Below, one piece after another: positions 44,237-53,500 of a DNA stretch of 64,000 nt; position 1 is the stretch's first letter; each line of letters starts with the position of its first letter. Source of the DNA: Comamonas testosteroni TK102 (lineage in GTDB: Bacteria > Pseudomonadota > Gammaproteobacteria > Burkholderiales > Burkholderiaceae_C); NCBI RefSeq assembly GCF_000739375.1, contig NZ_CP006704.1, positions 5,580,001-5,644,000 of the forward strand, written 5' to 3'. Position numbers and translations under genes: made by a program. A model generated the notes under the pieces. It searched no databases and had not been told where the DNA came from. It worked only from the letters and a program-made list of their open reading frames with translations.

Positions 44237-44320
44237 TGTCTCCGTAAGGATTCTTGGTGTATAAATCAATCATTCAATGGTTGATCCATTAATTCTATGT
44301 CTCAAAAGCAGAAACATCAA
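44236..44320. promoter_or_regulatory. Divergent promoters with a shared FadR-like operator
   Basis: Plus-strand promoter: TTGTCT (44236-44241), 18-base spacer, TATAAA (44260-44265). Minus-strand promoter: TTGATG (complement 44315-44320), 17-base spacer, TAGAAT (complement 44292-44297). Between the two -10 boxes lies the imperfect palindrome AATGGTTGATCCATT (44276-44290), covering the expected start sites of both. The same palindrome, AATGGTTGAACCATT, overlaps the promoter at 52165-52206. TGGT-N3-ACCA is the core bound by FadR-type GntR proteins; the gene at 47023 encodes one. Confidence 0.7.
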
Positions 44321-45790
44321 TTTGACGTGGACGATGATTTAATGAGTAATTACCCTAGTACAAGGCGGCAAGGCATTCATCTGCAAGCCACTGAAAAGTG
44401 GGGCACGCAGGAGGAGCTGGGGCAACCGAAATGGAGTGCTTGGCGTGACGGGGCGGTCTTGGTGGGCATTCCCGCGCTTACGCTGGTCGACTTGCTCCTG
44501 CGAAGCAGCGGCAGTGCGGCACTCATGGCTGCCGCATGCATGACCTTCCTATGGAAGTACGTTCATAGAGCCTCGGCTGCAGTGCAACGAACGTCTCTTG
44601 CTTTGCTAGGGATCACAGCCTTTCTTGTCCCAGTCATACAACAGCCCGTTGAGGCTCTAGAGAAGGGCCTTCGCATTGGCGCCCTGATTGCCTCATTACT
44701 GATTTCTGTCAGTCTGCTTTCACGCGCATCGTTGCGTGTTCCCCGGATGCGTAAAGTAGTACAGGACATCTTTGCGCTACCTAGACGACAGAGGCCGCTG
44801 GCTATAGGTGTGGCAACTCAGTTCTTGGGAGGCTTTTTGGGGCTAGCAGGACTGACGATGATGATGGAAGTGGCATCAACTCGCGAAGGGATTGCACAGA
44901 GCGACCAACTTGCCGACTTCAATGCTATTTCCCGGGGATATGCAGCACTCAGTCTCTGGAGCCCTATGTACAGCAACATGAGCATTGTGTTGGCGTTGTA
45001 TGGTGGGATGCACTGGATCGATGTGCTTCCTTACGCACTGATGATTGCGCTGGTATTCATCGGGCTGGGAGTCATACAGGAGAAGTTGAAGCTGCGAGAT
45101 GAAGAAGGAACTCCTATCCCTACTTCCTCAGTTTTTCCGCTGCTACGTGATGGATGGCCGATTGTCATAGTCATGCTGTGCTTTGTCGCACTCATGGTTC
45201 TGACAGGCCAGTATCTGAAGGTGGCGATTTCAGTGGTGATTATTGCCGGTTCACCACTGGTCGCTTGGTTGCTGAACATCATGTACCCGGATGAGCAAGC
45301 GCGACCGCTCGTCAATGGATCGCGCAAGCTTGCACAGGATTTGCTCGGTCAGGGACTCATGGCCGGCGAGGTACTACTTTTCATCGCGTCAGGGTGCGCA
45401 GGTGCCGTGCTGTCACAGGCCATTCCTGCATCTTGGAGTGCCTCGATTGCTCAACTCGCGCTAGGGTCGCCCTATCTTGGCAGCCTACTTGTGATTGCTT
45501 CAATAGTGCTTCTCTCGGGAACATCTATTCATCCAATGCTCAGCGCGGTTCTGGTTGCTTCGACACTGACGGCGTCTCAGTTGAATCTACTGCCGTTGGT
45601 GCACTTGTGCGCAGTGTTGGTCGGATGGGGACTGGCCATTATCGTGACGCCCTTTTCAGTCATCAGCATCATGGCGGCTCGGTTCAGTGGCTTGCCAATT
45701 CTGGACATCAGCCTGAAATCAAATTTCGCCTTTGTGCTGTGGTCTGTGGCCGGAGCTACGTTTGTGCTTGGGTTGGCAAACACGCTATGA
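44297..45790 (+). CDS. Multi-pass membrane transporter of unknown family
   Basis: 497 aa with about 11-13 hydrophobic helices after a hydrophilic N-terminal segment of about 45 residues. Segments such as LLVIASIVLLSGTSIHPMLSAVLVAS and GFLGLAGLTMMMEVAST (quoted in part) resemble hairpin-containing carriers of the ion transporter superfamily, but I do not recognise a specific family. The start is uncertain: the ATG at 44297 lacks a ribosome-binding site and overlaps the opposite promoter, and ATG at 44342 is an alternative. It precedes the racemase gene by 10 nt. It may import the acid bound by the two TctC proteins. Confidence 0.7.
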   Translation: MSQKQKHQFDVDDDLMSNYPSTRRQGIHLQATEKWGTQEELGQPKWSAWRDGAVLVGIPALTLVDLLLRSSGSAALMAAACMTFLWKYVHRASAAVQRTSLALLGITAFLVPVIQQPVEALEKGLRIGALIASLLISVSLLSRASLRVPRMRKVVQDIFALPRRQRPLAIGVATQFLGGFLGLAGLTMMMEVASTREGIAQSDQLADFNAISRGYAALSLWSPMYSNMSIVLALYGGMHWIDVLPYALMIALVFIGLGVIQEKLKLRDEEGTPIPTSSVFPLLRDGWPIVIVMLCFVALMVLTGQYLKVAISVVIIAGSPLVAWLLNIMYPDEQARPLVNGSRKLAQDLLGQGLMAGEVLLFIASGCAGAVLSQAIPASWSASIAQLALGSPYLGSLLVIASIVLLSGTSIHPMLSAVLVASTLTASQLNLLPLVHLCAVLVGWGLAIIVTPFSVISIMAARFSGLPILDISLKSNFAFVLWSVAGATFVLGLANTL

Positions 45791-47022: not shown

Positions 47023-47814
47023 ATGGTGACCATCAAACAAACGGAAGAGTTCGAGTCTCAAGCTCGTCCACTCAATTTTCAGCCAATTCGTTCGACGAGA
47101 GCATTCGAAGAGATTGCTGCCCAGATTCGTACTGAGCTTGCTGAAGGTCGCTTAAGGGTTGGCAATCGACTCCCATCGGAACGCGCACTGTCCGAGCAGT
47201 TTGGGGTTTCACGCAACACATTGCGCGAAGCGCTTCGCTCCCTTGAGCATGCTGGTTTGGTGCGATTGCAAAAAGGTGCTACCGGCGGAGCATTCATTAC
47301 CGAAGTCAATGGGGACACGATCACAACGAGCATGCTAGACATGTTCCACGTCGGGGCAATTTCTCCCGAAAAGTTGACAGAGGCTCGGATCTGGCTTGAA
47401 TCCGTAATCGTCCGAGAGGCTTGCCAGAAGGCTCGACCTGAAGATCTGCAACTGCTACGAGACAACATACTGCAAGTTGGAAAGGCGAAGTCCGATGGCG
47501 ACTTTCAGCGCCGAGTTGAGACCCATCTGGAGTTTCATCGCATTCTTGCGCGCATGACTGGTAACCCCATCATGGTGATCATGATGGATGGTCTGTTGGC
47601 AGTACTGAGACACTTCGTTTTTTCGATTGGGAACTATGAAAATGCCTTTGTAATTCCATCGCGCCAGCGTTTTATGAAATGTATGGAGGCCCGCGATGTG
47701 GAAGGAGCTGTCGCAGAGATGGAGTCGAGCTTGAAGAGGCTTCAGAAAAGCTATCTTTCCCTAGCTGCCAAGCAGAATCTAGATGTAACTGCAGCACCAA
47801 CGTCGCAGAGCTAA
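47023..47814 (+). CDS. GntR-family (FadR subfamily, FCD domain) regulator
   Basis: 263 aa. Winged helix at about 24-95: RSTRAFEEIAAQIRTELAEGRLRVGNRLPSERALSEQFGVSRNTLREALRSLEHAG (quoted only to locate it in parts), followed by an FCD ligand-binding domain with ARIWLESVIVREAC and the His-bearing RVETHLEFHRILARM. These domains bind acyl-CoA or carboxylate effectors, often with a metal. It lies between the two halves of the catabolic cluster, and its predicted FadR-like sites occur upstream of both, so it is probably the local repressor. Confidence 0.9.
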   Translation: MVTIKQTEEFESQARPLNFQPIRSTRAFEEIAAQIRTELAEGRLRVGNRLPSERALSEQFGVSRNTLREALRSLEHAGLVRLQKGATGGAFITEVNGDTITTSMLDMFHVGAISPEKLTEARIWLESVIVREACQKARPEDLQLLRDNILQVGKAKSDGDFQRRVETHLEFHRILARMTGNPIMVIMMDGLLAVLRHFVFSIGNYENAFVIPSRQRFMKCMEARDVEGAVAEMESSLKRLQKSYLSLAAKQNLDVTAAPTSQS

Positions 47815-48243
47815 GCCTAGCTCGTCGTGGTGAGACTTGTTAAGGGTGTTCGTTACCTGACCAAACGCATCCATGGCAGTTGCCTAGTCGTACACCCGCG
47901 TATTCCGACTGAATTGACCACCTGTGCCGGTTACGCCTTGACCAAGCTGCTGGTATCGGCTGCGTGTGGCTAGAAGCAGCCCTTGGCCGCTTCTTCGCCT
48001 GCGACCGCTACATGCTGGGCACGGTCGTTCGCCATTCTAAAGCGAATGTCAACGGCTGCCGGAACCGCTCATTGACCTTTCTCTTGCGAAGCGATTCCCC
48101 TCGTCACCGACAACTCTCAATCGGAATCTGTAGCCAGCTTGGTCGGCTCCAGTGGGAATGACCTTGGTCTTCGTGCAAAACTCCCTCACCAATCGTCCTA
48201 CCTCATAACGCCACGCGCCAGTCCGACTGACGGGGAGTTTTCC
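47815..48243. other. Non-coding junction between catabolic cluster and nuclease/helicase module
   Basis: 429 nt without a recognisable gene on either strand. A 9-bp inverted repeat AAAACTCCC (48177-48185) / GGGAGTTTT (48233-48241), loop 47 nt, lies just beyond the helicase stop codon and may act in termination. Short frames such as that at 47964-48161 show no similarity I know. The composition suggests degraded insertion debris. Confidence 0.5.
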
Positions 48244-50004
48244 TTAGAGCTTGTGCCCCTTGAGCAGGGGGCATTGCGGCCAAAGCGGATCGAGGATGAG
48301 CGTGTGAACTTTTGCTCGCGTGATGCCGACTCGAAGCACACGTCGGCTTTTGGGATACGGAGCAGTGTCACCTCGCCAAACGAAAGATGATTCAACGGCG
48401 GGGCCGGTCCGGCGAGCTTCGCGGACGAGGATGACTCCATCGAACTGCTTGCCCTTGGCCTTGTGGAAATTCATGACTTGTAAGCCCATCGGCGGCTCCA
48501 CGCCGTCGAGGATTTGCTCCTGTGCGAGAGCCAAGTCGAGGGCGGTGCGGGCATTGGTGTAGGCGCCATCTCGAAGCCATTCATCAGAGAGGGCAGCCGA
48601 GATGCGATGTCCCCGACGGAATGCCACCAAGAAGTCTAACTGCGCAGCGACCCGCGTGAGTTCGTCTTGATTGGTCGCCCGCAGCTCATGTTTGACCGTG
48701 AGCCAGTCCTCGGCGGGATCGCCGCTGAAATCGTTGACTGCCAAGCCTGAGATTAGGCCGCGCAGCGCGTTGGCGATGTTGATGTTCAAGACCTTGCCAC
48801 CCTTGATTTTGTTGGCCTGCTCCAAGAGTTTGGCGACTTCCTTCCTGCCCTGTCCCGTCGCGCGTCTCGCTGCGGCGATCATTTCCATGCTGGTGACGAC
48901 ATCGGCCTCCAATTTGGCGAGGTCCTTGGGTTCCAGCAGAAAGGCCGCGAAACGGGCTGACAGCAGCGCTTCGGCCTCGTCGAACAGCAGCTTGTGCCGA
49001 ACCGGCTTCCCGACATTGGCCCCCAACGCGTTGAGGGCGTTGGACATCTTCAACGCACTGCGGTTGTTGGTGACTAGTATCGCGATCGTCTCCACCGTCT
49101 TGTCGCTCTGAGCCCGAATTGATTTCAAGAGCTCTCCGAGGGCTCGGCGCAGCAGATGATTCCAGTTCGGCGGTGGCTTCTCGGGGCGGTAGGCAAGGGC
49201 GGAAACGCCCTTGTAAGGCGCGCCGCGTGGCTTGGCCGTCAGGATGTCATTGCCGAACGCCAAGATTTCGGAGTCCGAGCTGCGGTGGTTCTGCGTCCCA
49301 AGGTCGATCTCGTGCGGCTTCAATGCCTCCCGGATGGCGATCACGCGCTCCGGGCCGACGCCTGGCAGGTAGTCGAAGATTTGCTGCTCGAGGTCTGCCA
49401 GGCACAGCACCTGCGTGTGTGGCGCGAGCATCTGGATGCACTGCCACGCGTATGGGCCGGTGTCCTGGGCCTCGTCCACGATGATGATGGGATGCCGATG
49501 GGCGATCGACGCCAAAAGATGCGAGCTGCGAGCCAACAGAGCTGTCGCATTGGCCGCGAACAGATCGAACGCGATCCGCCCCTCTTCGCGAAACAGCCGC
49601 TCACGCTCGACGAGCCACTCGTCCCAGCCATCGTCTTCGTCGCCGAGGCCGCCCGACAGGGCCTTCTCGTCGTGTGGCAGCAAGATCGAGAGCCTATGCG
49701 GTGCCCCAAGCAGGTAGGCATGGGGTTTGAGGATGTCCCAGAAGAACGAATGGAACGTCTGGATGGAGAGCTGCTCCTGTTCGGCTTTGGTGGACTCAAG
49801 CTTGGCGGCATCCAAGATGCGCGCCACTGCCGCCCGCGAGAAGCTCAGGAACAGGGCAGACTGACCCGGAAGCATGCCGTCGCGAATCCGCTTGACCGCC
49901 TTGCGCAGCGCGAGCGTCGTCTTGCCGCTGCCGGGACCGCCGATGACCAAGGCATGGCCTTCGCAAGCTATGACGCTTTCACGCAGTTTGCACGGCTCGT
50001 TCAT
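48244..50004 (-). CDS. UvrD/PcrA-like superfamily 1 helicase, GajB-like
   Basis: 586 aa. Superfamily 1A helicase motifs: Walker A GGPGSGKTT (22-30), motif Ia/b LFLSFSRAAVARIL, IQTFHSFFWDIL (about 81-92), DEAQD box IIIVDEAQD (173-181), CLADLEQQIFDYLPG (201-215), motif V MNFHKAKGKQFDGVIL and motif VI RRVLRVGITRAKVHTLIL (quoted in part). It is longer than the core GajB described for Gabija, which is nearer 500 aa. The ATG (complement 50002-50004) overlaps the stop of the OLD gene by four bases. The frame is open further upstream, but that part lies inside the partner gene. Partner of the OLD nuclease; probable anti-phage defence. Confidence 0.85.
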   Translation of the reverse strand: MNEPCKLRESVIACEGHALVIGGPGSGKTTLALRKAVKRIRDGMLPGQSALFLSFSRAAVARILDAAKLESTKAEQEQLSIQTFHSFFWDILKPHAYLLGAPHRLSILLPHDEKALSGGLGDEDDGWDEWLVERERLFREEGRIAFDLFAANATALLARSSHLLASIAHRHPIIIVDEAQDTGPYAWQCIQMLAPHTQVLCLADLEQQIFDYLPGVGPERVIAIREALKPHEIDLGTQNHRSSDSEILAFGNDILTAKPRGAPYKGVSALAYRPEKPPPNWNHLLRRALGELLKSIRAQSDKTVETIAILVTNNRSALKMSNALNALGANVGKPVRHKLLFDEAEALLSARFAAFLLEPKDLAKLEADVVTSMEMIAAARRATGQGRKEVAKLLEQANKIKGGKVLNINIANALRGLISGLAVNDFSGDPAEDWLTVKHELRATNQDELTRVAAQLDFLVAFRRGHRISAALSDEWLRDGAYTNARTALDLALAQEQILDGVEPPMGLQVMNFHKAKGKQFDGVILVREARRTGPAVESSFVWRGDTAPYPKSRRVLRVGITRAKVHTLILDPLWPQCPLLKGHKL

Positions 50005-51821
50005 GGAGCGGCAGCAGCGGCGGCTGGTTCGGGTGGTGCTCCATCGCCGTCGTCGATCGGTGGTGGAGGTGGGAACAGTGCGAACACTGACGCCAGAAAC
50101 TTCGTCACCGTGACCGGCAGCTCGTGGAGCTCGCACTCCTCGAACAGGCGCGCCGACCAGCCGGCGCCCTTGTTGCCGCCGAGGGCTTCTTTGGCGATGG
50201 CCTTGACCGCGTCGTCGTTCGGGCGCGCATCGGGGATGGCGACGTTGCCGTTCTCATCATTGGCTTTTAAGCCCGACAGGAAGGACCACAGCCGATCCAC
50301 GGGCACCTCCGCCACGACGAGGTCTTCGAAGCCCTTGTAGGCGTGCTCGACATTGATTTCGAAGTTGTCCGCCAGAGCCTGCGCCTGCTCGGTCTTGCGC
50401 TTCTTTTTGTAGTCAAGGTCGTAGAAAGCGAAGGTACGTAGCTCTAGCGTCTTGAAGAACTTTCCGAACTTTGGCATGTTCGACTCGCCATCAGCGTCGA
50501 AGAAGGCCACACCCGCGATGTCCAGCGGCTGCAAGTTGGAATCGCTCTCTTCCATGCGCCGAGCAACGACGGGCATCGCATGCAACTCGGTAACGCCTTC
50601 GACGACGATGACTGCTCGTCCCAGCATGCATTCAGACAGGCCAGAGCGAGAGAAGCGCTTGTAGTCGTTGTCTTTGAGGCCGGTGGCGTCGGAGACCTTT
50701 CGCGCCGTGACCACGCCGGCATTGCGAGCCAGCAGCAGTGTCTTGGATGGCTCGAACTTCTCGATCACGAATGGCGAGTGGGAAGTCACAAAGGCCTGCG
50801 TCGTCTTGGTCAGCAGGTATTGGGCGATGCGTCGCTGGGTGTGCGGCGGCACCGCGATCTCGGGCTCCTCCATGGCGAAGATGACCGTGTCGGGCTTGAG
50901 GTCGGCGATGAAGGAGAGCAGCGCGAGCACCAGCGTGTTGATGGTGCCCGTACCGGCGTGGGGGAATGGGACGTGTCCTTGGTCCACCGACAGCGCCAAG
51001 AAGAACGTCATCGTCTTGCGCAGATGCTCACGCGTGAGCTCCGAGACATGCAGCTTGGTGGCGTTGCCGGGCGACTCCAATGCGATGTAGCGGGCCAACC
51101 GCCTCTCCACGGATCGCAGAACCGGCGCGATCTCGGCCGCGTCGGTTTCTATGTCGAGGCCACGCAGGCGCTCGATGGTCTTCTCCCACAGGCTGGTGCG
51201 CACGCCCTTGGTCCGCAGGATGATGTCGAGAAGTGACCCTCGCTCCAAGCTCAGCGCCCGCGAGCCAGTCCGAAGCGCCCTCAGGTAGAGGAAACCAAAC
51301 AGCCGCTTGATCGGCCTTGGAAGCTTGGTCAGCTCTCCGGGGGGAGCGTCGGGACTATGGGAGAAGTAGGTGCGTGCCTCGAACTCGTCTTCCTCGGGGT
51401 TATATTGGCCGATGGTCTCGATCCGAAGGCAGGGGACGGCATGGGGCGGATTGGCGGCGTCGGCCTCTCCCGGCCCGAGCAGTCTTTGTTCGGGTACATG
51501 CCAAAACTCGATGTTGCCGCCGCACTTGGCTCCGATTTCGGCACCGGGCTCAATGAGGACCGCCTCGATCCGAAGCGGAGTCGGCACCCGCTCCGCGCCT
51601 TCTGCTGCGGCAGGTGCCAGGTATTCGGCGTTGTAGAAGTCGAACTCATCGACCGGAGGGAAGCGGTTGAGTCGGTCGGGGCCCAAGACCAGGTCGAGGG
51701 CTTCGCAGAGCGTGCTCTTGCCGACATTGTTGGAGCCCACCATCAGGGTGTGTCCGTCGAACAGGAGCTCAGCCGACTTGATGCCGCGAAAGTTCGAGAT
51801 AGTCAGCCGCACAACCTTCAT
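50001..51821 (-). CDS. OLD-family ATP-dependent nuclease (ABC ATPase + TOPRIM), GajA-like
   Basis: 606 aa. N-terminal SMC/RecF-like ATPase: FRGIKSAELLFDG, Walker A GSNNVGKST (29-37), Walker B VIFAMEEPEIAVPP with catalytic Glu319, and the switch His in FVTSHSPF (348). The C-terminal TOPRIM nuclease domain has AVIVVEGVTELHAMPVVA (Glu409), FFDADGES (442/444) and FYDLDYK (468/470). It ends in a Pro/Ala-rich tail. The pairing with a UvrD helicase is the class 2 OLD arrangement that includes Gabija. Visibly GC-rich and on the opposite strand to the flanking catabolic genes, suggesting separate arrival. GGGAGAAG precedes the ATG. Confidence 0.87.
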   Translation of the reverse strand: MKVVRLTISNFRGIKSAELLFDGHTLMVGSNNVGKSTLCEALDLVLGPDRLNRFPPVDEFDFYNAEYLAPAAAEGAERVPTPLRIEAVLIEPGAEIGAKCGGNIEFWHVPEQRLLGPGEADAANPPHAVPCLRIETIGQYNPEEDEFEARTYFSHSPDAPPGELTKLPRPIKRLFGFLYLRALRTGSRALSLERGSLLDIILRTKGVRTSLWEKTIERLRGLDIETDAAEIAPVLRSVERRLARYIALESPGNATKLHVSELTREHLRKTMTFFLALSVDQGHVPFPHAGTGTINTLVLALLSFIADLKPDTVIFAMEEPEIAVPPHTQRRIAQYLLTKTTQAFVTSHSPFVIEKFEPSKTLLLARNAGVVTARKVSDATGLKDNDYKRFSRSGLSECMLGRAVIVVEGVTELHAMPVVARRMEESDSNLQPLDIAGVAFFDADGESNMPKFGKFFKTLELRTFAFYDLDYKKKRKTEQAQALADNFEINVEHAYKGFEDLVVAEVPVDRLWSFLSGLKANDENGNVAIPDARPNDDAVKAIAKEALGGNKGAGWSARLFEECELHELPVTVTKFLASVFALFPPPPPIDDGDGAPPEPAAAAAAP

Positions 51822-52164
51822 GTCTTCTCCCGTATTGGCGTAAGCCTTAGTTTGGTGGTGTGGTGGTCATCATAAAGAGGCGCGCATGGCCCGTCTGCTC
51901 AAGTCAGCCTGGAACGGCCGCCTTGTGGCTGTCAGCGTCAGTTGATCTCGCAGCAACGACTGACAGCAATCGCGGCAAAGTAAGCGTAGGAAAATGGCCC
52001 GCGAACAGCTGCAAAGGTGGCCAGGACAAGCAGACGGGTCATCTCGTATCGGAATGATGGCCAATTAACGCCTACGCCCGCATTCCGCCGTCGATGTAGC
52101 ACTCTGCAAGAAATCAGGTCACAACGAGTGACCTAGGGCATTCCCTGATCCCTAGCAAACACAC
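51822..52164. other. Spacer with relic of a short-chain dehydrogenase C-terminus
   Basis: 343 nt between the OLD gene and arm 2 of the catabolic cluster. On the minus strand, complement 52072-52113 reads FLAECYIDGGMRA followed by TAG, the typical C-terminal end of SDR enzymes. The preceding part of such a gene is absent, so this is a truncated relic. No strong promoter for the OLD gene was identified in the remainder. Confidence 0.45.
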
Positions 52165-52216: not shown

Positions 52217-53500
52217 ATGTTCGACCAAAAGCTTATCAACGCTTTGCCTGTGCACCAGACAGCTACCGGAACCGCTGCACCCGTACTTCAAGGTTTGCGC
52301 GTTGCCGACTTCACTCACTTCATTGCGGGGCCTCTCGCCACGATGACGCTGGGTGATTTCGGCGCGGATGTCATCAAGATTGAAGCTCCTGAAAGAGGTG
52401 ATGACTTCCGTCACTATCCATTTGTAGATCCTGATATTCCAGCTCAAGGAAGTGCGTTCCTATGGAGCAACCGTAACAAGAAGAGCCTGGCGCTGGATAT
52501 GAAGTCCGAGGCAGGCCTCGAGGTGGCCAAGGCACTGATCACTCAAGCTGATGTGCTGGTCGAAAACTTCTCCTCTGGCGTGATGGAGCGCTTTGGTCTG
52601 GACTATGAGACCTGCGCCAAGTTGAATCCCCGCTTGATTTACTGCTCGGTGTCGGCCTACGGTCGAGAAGGCCCTTACTCAGATCGCCTGGGGTTCGACC
52701 CCATTGCTCAGGCAGAGAGCGGTTTCATTTCGATGAACGGGTATGCAGATCGACAAGGTGTGCGCACCGGTGCAGCCGTTATGGATGTTGGAACAGCGAT
52801 GACTGCAACCAATGCAATTTTGTTGGCGCTGATTGCTCGACAACGTGATGGCAAAGGTCAGCGCTTAGAAGTCGCGCTGTTTGACACTGCTGTGGTGATG
52901 ACTGGTTTTGGTGCCATGCAGCACTTAACTACTGGCTATGAGCCTCAGCGAAATGGCAATACAAGCCCGGACACGTGTCCTTCGGGTGTCTTCATGAGCG
53001 AAGACAAACCTTTCTATATCAACTGCGGAAACGACAAGATATATCTGCGCCTGTTTGAGCAAGTTCTGAATCGTCCTGATCTTGCAAATGATCCTGTGTT
53101 GTCGCAACGGGTGGGCCGCCTTAAGCAACGTGAGTTTCTGTTTGAGGTCATGAATGAGGCGTTCATTCAGAAGCCATGGAGCCACTGGGCTCCACTCCTG
53201 CGAGCAGCCAACGTGCCGCATGGCCAAGTTAAGACACTGGGTGAGGCGTTGGCATCTGAAGAGGCTCGCTCCCGCGGTTTAGTGACTCGCATTCCACACC
53301 CAGTCAAGGGTTGGATTCCGAATATCAGCAACCCTATTCGCATGTCAGACACGCCCGCAGTTATGCCTAAAGCAGCGCCGGCCGTGGGAGCGGATACGGA
53401 TTCTGTCTTACACAATGTACTCAAGTACGACGAAGCTCGTATTGAGCAGCTCCGTGCTGCGGGCGCTTTCGGCACCATGGTTGAAAAGGTGGCAGCATGA
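52217..53500 (+). CDS. CaiB/BaiF family (class III) CoA transferase
   Basis: 427 aa. Shows the family III N-terminus LQGLRVADFTHFIAGPLATMTLGDFGADVIKIE (quoted in part), WSNRNKKSLALDMKS, and the catalytic Asp190 in GAAVMDVGTAMTATNAI that forms an aspartyl-CoA anhydride. It differs from the racemase-like paralogue at 45801 in lacking the AMACR His, so it probably activates the imported acid by CoA transfer. First gene of arm 2, directly behind the operator-promoter. Its stop overlaps the next start by four bases. Confidence 0.88.
   Translation: MFDQKLINALPVHQTATGTAAPVLQGLRVADFTHFIAGPLATMTLGDFGADVIKIEAPERGDDFRHYPFVDPDIPAQGSAFLWSNRNKKSLALDMKSEAGLEVAKALITQADVLVENFSSGVMERFGLDYETCAKLNPRLIYCSVSAYGREGPYSDRLGFDPIAQAESGFISMNGYADRQGVRTGAAVMDVGTAMTATNAILLALIARQRDGKGQRLEVALFDTAVVMTGFGAMQHLTTGYEPQRNGNTSPDTCPSGVFMSEDKPFYINCGNDKIYLRLFEQVLNRPDLANDPVLSQRVGRLKQREFLFEVMNEAFIQKPWSHWAPLLRAANVPHGQVKTLGEALASEEARSRGLVTRIPHPVKGWIPNISNPIRMSDTPAVMPKAAPAVGADTDSVLHNVLKYDEARIEQLRAAGAFGTMVEKVAA

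Follow-up and report, generated by a model that had tools for sequence, protein, structure and literature searches.

A pair of overlapping genes, gajA and gajB, in a 64,000-nucleotide stretch of Comamonas testosteroni TK102 (contig NZ_CP006704.1, positions 5,580,001 to 5,644,000 of the forward strand; the whole stretch is called the window below) very probably represents a two-gene Gabija, or class 2 OLD, anti-phage system, which belongs to a distinct, already modelled sub-lineage and was acquired horizontally as a block of about 4 kb. An earlier note, made from the sequence alone, had described an OLD nuclease and a UvrD helicase in overlapping frames at these positions, and this was borne out: both frames are intact and meet in a short overlap (Table 1). 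A frame of 630 amino acids (aa) with a GTG start was the upstream extension of the 586-aa gajB.

Profile searches, which the note had recommended, matched GajA to PADLOC model PDLC00086 (757 bits, residues 1-588, E = 4.2e-228) and GajB to PDLC00141 (844 bits, profile positions 1-572 of 572, E = 1.3e-254); with E-values of this size, neither match can be put down to chance. These full-length matches, together with the conserved pairing of the two genes, upheld the class 2 OLD or Gabija arrangement, while the suggestion of a new class 2 module fell away, since dedicated PADLOC models of both proteins already exist for the branch. Pfam recognised AAA_15 (80.6 bits) and OLD-like_TOPRIM (39.8 bits) in GajA, both above cut-off, and UvrD-helicase and UvrD_C in GajB. 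No NCBIfam profile matched either protein near its cut-off; GajB scored 57 bits against an equivalog cut-off of 1144 for UvrD, 53 against 951 for Rep and 50 against 911 for PcrA. Class 1 OLD genes stand singly, without a helicase, whereas gajA is overlapped by its partner. As for class 3 (retron) OLD, no reverse transcriptase occurred among the Pfam matches of eight flanking genes (one of which had no match), and Rfam returned no match at gathering score, to a retron RNA or otherwise, across the whole window.

Across 84,980 species genomes, a scan picked out 287 related stretches; 80 of these were retained and, with the addition of a Robbsia plasmid, made up 81 loci, whose record titles name hosts from Pseudomonadota, Bacteroidota, Acidobacteria and candidate phyla. 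A GajB-like frame was present in 79 of the 81, being missing from L034, where the sequence ends at gajA, and from L083, where gajA itself lies in two frames. The gene was short or split in L032, L044, L053 (two pieces) and L081. Its ATG lay at offset -3 in 24 of the loci, and most others had other short spacings. Among 300 genomes from the order, only six, counting the host, had a full-length match to PDLC00086 of at least 700 bits, and the next best score was 179 bits; the distribution is therefore patchy, like that of transferred defence genes. Relatives occurred on 15 of 72,556 plasmid records (E = 1e-60 or better) and at 14 loci in viral contigs, one of them weak (13 contigs at 38% identity or more), while only 2 of 50,697 phage records gave matches, both weak and partial.

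Table 1. Positions of the gene pair, its parts and related features. Coordinates are window positions unless a locus (L) is named, in which case the approximate genome position follows.
Feature	Coordinates	Strand	Description or basis
gajA	50001-51821	minus	OLD-family protein, N-terminal ABC ATPase and C-terminal TOPRIM, 606 aa, frame intact
gajB	48244-50004	minus	UvrD/Rep-like superfamily 1 (SF1) helicase-family protein, 586 aa from ATG at 50004, frame intact
ATGA overlap, gajA stop and gajB start	50001-50004	minus	Sequence
TOPRIM core E408, G409, E412, G437, D468-L-D470	50418-50600	minus	GajA alignment
Shared block, about 3.96 kb	48015-51977		Both ends shared by L006, L007 and L008, left end also by L010 (blastn, junction alignment)
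Second Gabija pair	L103:3865-7339, ~5981864-5985338	plus	GajA PDLC00071 807 bits, GajB PDLC00106 710 bits
Third Gabija pair	L104:4810-8375, ~1759809-1763374	minus	GajA PDLC00071 981 bits, GajB PDLC00106 856 bits
Fourth Gabija pair	L111:892-5102, ~1771891-1776101	minus	GajA (778 aa) PDLC00095 854 bits, GajB PDLC00143 772 bits

The note had also proposed a divergent subtype. The distance itself was evident, the second-best PADLOC model for the window GajA scoring 121 bits against 757 for the first, and the PADLOC 'Old' model 112 bits; by contrast, the GajA of the third pair in the same genome had matches to many GajA models, their scores falling step by step. For GajB, the second model scored 632 bits and the third 96 bits. 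A search of PDB with the window GajA recovered the protein of Bacillus cereus at an E-value of only 4.7e-7, across residues 285-417. A profile of 56 GajA relatives gave 66 bits with the Thermus OLD and 60 bits with B. cereus GajA, and so GajA is not singled out over class 1 OLD by sequence alone; it is the partner gene, along with the PADLOC models, that places the branch within Gabija. Both of the reasons that the note had offered for divergence were weak, and neither was accepted as the mark of a new subtype. The size of GajB is ordinary, given that the GajB models listed span 369-685 positions and that the other GajB proteins of this genome have 580, 577 and 625 aa. The Pro/Ala-rich tail of GajA (at least ten P or A in the last 25 aa) was present, with variable sequence, in 11 of the 56 GajA in the alignment, these being for the most part close relatives.

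In a tree of 35 OLD proteins, the window branch (13 rows) was supported at 100/100 and joined other helicase-linked OLD proteins at 93/95; L124 and L125, which had been labelled 'other', fell within it. A grouping with repair proteins, which the note had named as a refutation, did not appear in the tree, but the deepest branches were weak and many end branches were long. Holding the 28 class 2 rows as one clade was not rejected (approximately unbiased test, p = 0.159). A single class 2 clade had been marginally rejected (p = 0.0456) in an earlier run, where L097 was mislabelled as class 1; this is a shortened copy beside an intact copy and then a short helicase, and it was replaced in the 35-row tree. 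At locus L137 (2424-9484, minus strand, genome G212), an intact OLD copy, which a short helicase-like frame of 425 aa overlaps, is separated by about 4 kb from a shortened one. Its best PADLOC scores were 179 bits (GajA PDLC00086) and 55 bits (GajB PDLC04173), which puts that pair outside the models.

Residues of GajA were counted across the 56 aligned sequences, and were mapped to the B. cereus and Burkholderia pseudomallei proteins by sequence position and spacing, rather than by structural superposition. G34, K35, S36, E318, E319, H348, E408, G409, G437, D468, E499 and K551 were invariant (56/56), while position 412 was E in 48 sequences and D in eight. Walker A (G29-T37), E319 and H348 were located as the note had listed them, but its TOPRIM glutamate is E408, not E409. 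The two DxD strings that it had reported both exist (D442-A-D444 and D468-L-D470), but only the second sits at the expected catalytic place. This second string was complete in just eight of the 56, the window copy included (DLD in seven, DND in one), and incomplete in 48.

The active site of the B. pseudomallei class 2 OLD is described as E400, E404, D455, D457, T506, E508 and K562, of which T506 is called absolutely conserved in the class (PMC6755086); that of B. cereus GajA is given as E379, E383, D432, D434, D511, D513 and K541, with D511 replacing T506 (PMC10822852), so the seventh place differs between these two proteins also. By position, E408, E412, D468, D470, E499 and K551 of the window GajA correspond to six of the seven, K551 and E499 matching the catalytic lysine and the metal-B glutamate of the B. 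pseudomallei enzyme (PMC6755086). The seventh place, two before E499, is occupied by Gly497 in the window and by Gly in 51 of 56 GajA. The branch thus appears to depart from the described class 2 set, the window protein apparently at the T506 place only. H320 of B. cereus GajA and D162/E163 of its GajB are reported to be needed for defence (PMC10822852); their counterparts, GajA H348 and GajB D177/E178, were invariant in the aligned relatives. An AlphaFold model of GajA (mean predicted local distance difference test, pLDDT, 85.0) had B. cereus GajA at Foldseek ranks 1-3 (best match 8x5i, E = 1.7e-20), and class 1 OLD was also a fold match.

The note's claim that the partner carries all main SF1 helicase motifs was sustained, the motifs located being Walker A (22-30), DEAQD (177-181), motif III (203-207), QNHRS (238-242), motif V (512-522) and motif VI (559-565). 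Among 24 aligned GajB, 15 of 17 motif positions were invariant; position 29 was T in 23 and S in one, and position 516 varied. The GajB model (pLDDT 86.3) matched UvrD-like folds and aligned with UvrD along its whole length, while its helices between 344 and 498 point to a 2B-like region some 160 residues long, compared with 111 residues (306-416) in B. cereus GajB (PMC10822852). The latter is described as having no UvrD gating helix, GIG motif or separation pin, and as not unwinding DNA (PMC10681800). Taken together, the end-to-end model alignment, the larger 2B-like region and the contrast with B. cereus lend some colour to a different mechanism, in which the window GajB would be a working DNA helicase and the complex would unwind or track along DNA as well as cut it, instead of nicking at specific sites with the help of a partner that does not unwind. 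This is possible, though it is the less probable course: likeness of fold to UvrD is no proof of activity, and in a rough alignment RATGQG of the window GajB stood opposite RGIG of a UvrD/Rep-like protein of the host, which indicates that the GIG motif is not kept. Unwinding by GajB is itself described as unclear (PMC10681800), and the generality of its missing helicase activity has been raised as a question (PMC10568477).

The genes lie within a shared block, which blastn recovered from several other genera: Acidovorax (L006: 48014-51977, 96.1%), Pseudorhodoferax (L007: 48015-51977, 95.1%) and Variovorax (L008: 48005-51890 at 95.4% and 51891-51980 at 93.3%, with an interruption of about 399 bp after 51890). 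In L010 a match of 95.3% (48014-51672) was cut by the contig end, leaving the left block end only, and the match in Robbsia (L005) was shorter (48116-51889, 94.2%); both of its flanks carry annotated transposase genes. The block ends of the window, L006, L007 and L008 coincided while their surroundings differed, and the guanine-plus-cytosine content of the block was 61.4%, against 53.2% and 54.1% in the 5 kb on each side. On these alignments, horizontal transfer of the block between genera is clearly indicated. In the same four copies, the block ends had no inverted repeats beyond those expected (244-437 of 500 shuffles reached the observed score) and no target duplication (longest shared flank string, 4-5 nucleotides). 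Of 399 genomes from the order, only the host itself carried the left end (the search of genomes covered that end alone), and among 72,556 plasmid records either end was found in the Robbsia record only; the end sequences led to no related element. No empty site was seen: the flank at 47023-47860 matched in full only the host genome of 61, with a 54-base match in one other, and of 250 genomes searched for the CaiB-like protein encoded at 52217-53497, the host alone gave a match at E = 1e-120.

The copy on Robbsia andropogonis plasmid p3 (L005:12044-15622, minus strand) is a single frame of 1192 aa that fuses GajA and GajB. The fusion hinges on a C-run near the 3' end of gajA, which has nine C, against eight in the Variovorax copy (L008), and reads CCACCACC in the window; the joined frame could reflect an error of sequencing, a genuine fusion or a tract that is able to switch. 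A broader proposal, which must be thought improbable, would combine these features: a GajB that truly unwinds, acting as part of a tracking helicase-nuclease, carried by a transposase-free cassette of about 4 kb with fixed ends, in which the C-tract switches between two proteins and one fusion.

The Gabija pair is set between two catabolic gene clusters, and Pfam searches of the eight flanking genes revealed no mobile or defence neighbour. These genes encode TctC, two CoA-transferase III proteins, a GntR/FCD regulator, a thiolase, a ChsH2-type OB protein and an acyl-CoA dehydrogenase; the gene adjoining that of the TctC receptor (44297-45790, plus strand) encodes a 497-aa protein rich in hydrophobic stretches, with no Pfam family at E = 1e-5. 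Elsewhere, the nearest frame on each side was surveyed at 50 of the 81 loci, namely L005 and every locus that had 3.5 kb or more in both directions, giving 100 frames that were chosen by length rather than by a gene caller, with no control set. Among the 25 Pfam families listed, of 78, were AbiEii (5 of 100), Phage_integrase (4), HTH_Tnp_1 (2), and TrwC, TrwB and TraN (1 each); among 25 PADLOC families listed, of 92, were pAgo (2), JetA (1) and one AbiEii model (at most 3). As for a defence or mobile context, whose consistent absence from homologues would in the note's terms refute the proposal, homologue neighbours include defence and mobile genes, but many frames matched nothing and the window copy has catabolic surroundings. 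Its lack of any visible mobile or defence neighbour, with the broken gajA or gajB of relatives such as L083 and L053, would suit a cassette that no longer functions and is decaying, having been retained by chance once inserted; this is quite unlikely for the window copy, where both frames are intact and every checked catalytic residue is kept. That the genes instead act in the DNA repair of the host, as a chromosomal pair made up of an OLD/RecF-like ATPase and a UvrD/Rep-type helicase, is very improbable indeed, given the GajB scores far below the NCBIfam cut-offs, another UvrD/Rep-like frame elsewhere in the genome, the patchy distribution and the copies of 94-96% DNA identity in other genera.

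Three further Gabija pairs were present in the same genome, making four in total (Table 1). The third adjoined three consecutive long frames (L104, 9062-14268) that resemble a recombinase trio by eye, and the fourth (L111) lay near frames that by eye resemble conjugative-transfer (Trb-like) genes.

By analogy with other Gabija systems, the window pair would be expected to form a 4:4 GajA-GajB complex, to cleave DNA and to act in an anti-phage defence that requires both genes (sources for the mechanism: PMC10781630, PMC10822852, PMC10681800, PMC12407980). Tetramers of GajA that carry bound GajB have been described (PMC10781630, PMC10822852), as has control of the nuclease by the ATPase (PMC10822852). 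On the pattern of B. cereus and Pseudomonas aeruginosa, the window GajA would form a tetramer through its ATPase part and bind GajB, and nucleotide in two ATPase sites would hold the TOPRIM nuclease in check. Infection would then free GajA, either by exposing unprotected linear ends of phage DNA or by lowering nucleotides, and the freed enzyme would nick or cut phage DNA, with E408, E412, D468/D470, E499 and K551 holding two metals; GajB would hydrolyse nucleoside triphosphates on DNA ends and support the complex. The trigger models in print, linear DNA (PMC12407980) and nucleotide depletion (PMC10568477), conflict, and no result from the window decides between them.

The window pair is largely ordinary, being a divergent member of an already catalogued Gabija branch. 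What raises it above routine is the change of TOPRIM motifs at the level of the branch and the occurrence of four Gabija pairs in one genome. Gabija is common, but its mechanism is known from few systems. This branch, in which GajB is larger and a TOPRIM motif has changed, makes a good comparator. Whether the window GajB, with its larger 2B-like region, unwinds DNA, unlike that of B. cereus, is a question worth asking, and the four different pairs could be used to ask whether branches divide labour.

Among known systems, the closest counterpart is the pair of PADLOC models PDLC00086 and PDLC00141, where matches were full-length, gene order and overlap were alike and no distinguishing difference was found. 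The Gabija of B. cereus VD045 (GajA 578 aa, GajB 494 aa; PDB 8sm3, 8x5i) shares the ATPase-TOPRIM nuclease with an SF1 partner, the GajA fold and, by position, the ATPase residues and most TOPRIM catalytic residues; it differs in being remote in sequence, in a GajB about 90 aa shorter with a smaller 2B-like region, and in D511 where the window has Gly497. The class 2 OLD of B. pseudomallei (PDB 6NK8; PMC6755086) falls under the same class definition, with a UvrD/PcrA/Rep-like helicase in tandem. For its E400, E404, D455, D457, E508 and K562 the window GajA has a residue that corresponds by position, whereas T506 is replaced by Gly, and no significant sequence match to the B. pseudomallei protein appeared among those listed. 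Class 1 OLD (P2 Old; Thermus scotoductus OLD, PDB 6p74) has the same ATPase-TOPRIM architecture and matches in fold, the difference being that its members are single genes while gajA is followed by an overlapping helicase gene. The Gabija of P. aeruginosa PA14 is a gajA-gajB operon on a mobile island, likened to the window pair here by its description rather than by sequence, and the preprint that describes it offers the best current trigger model, namely linear DNA that is not handled by RecBCD (PMC12407980).

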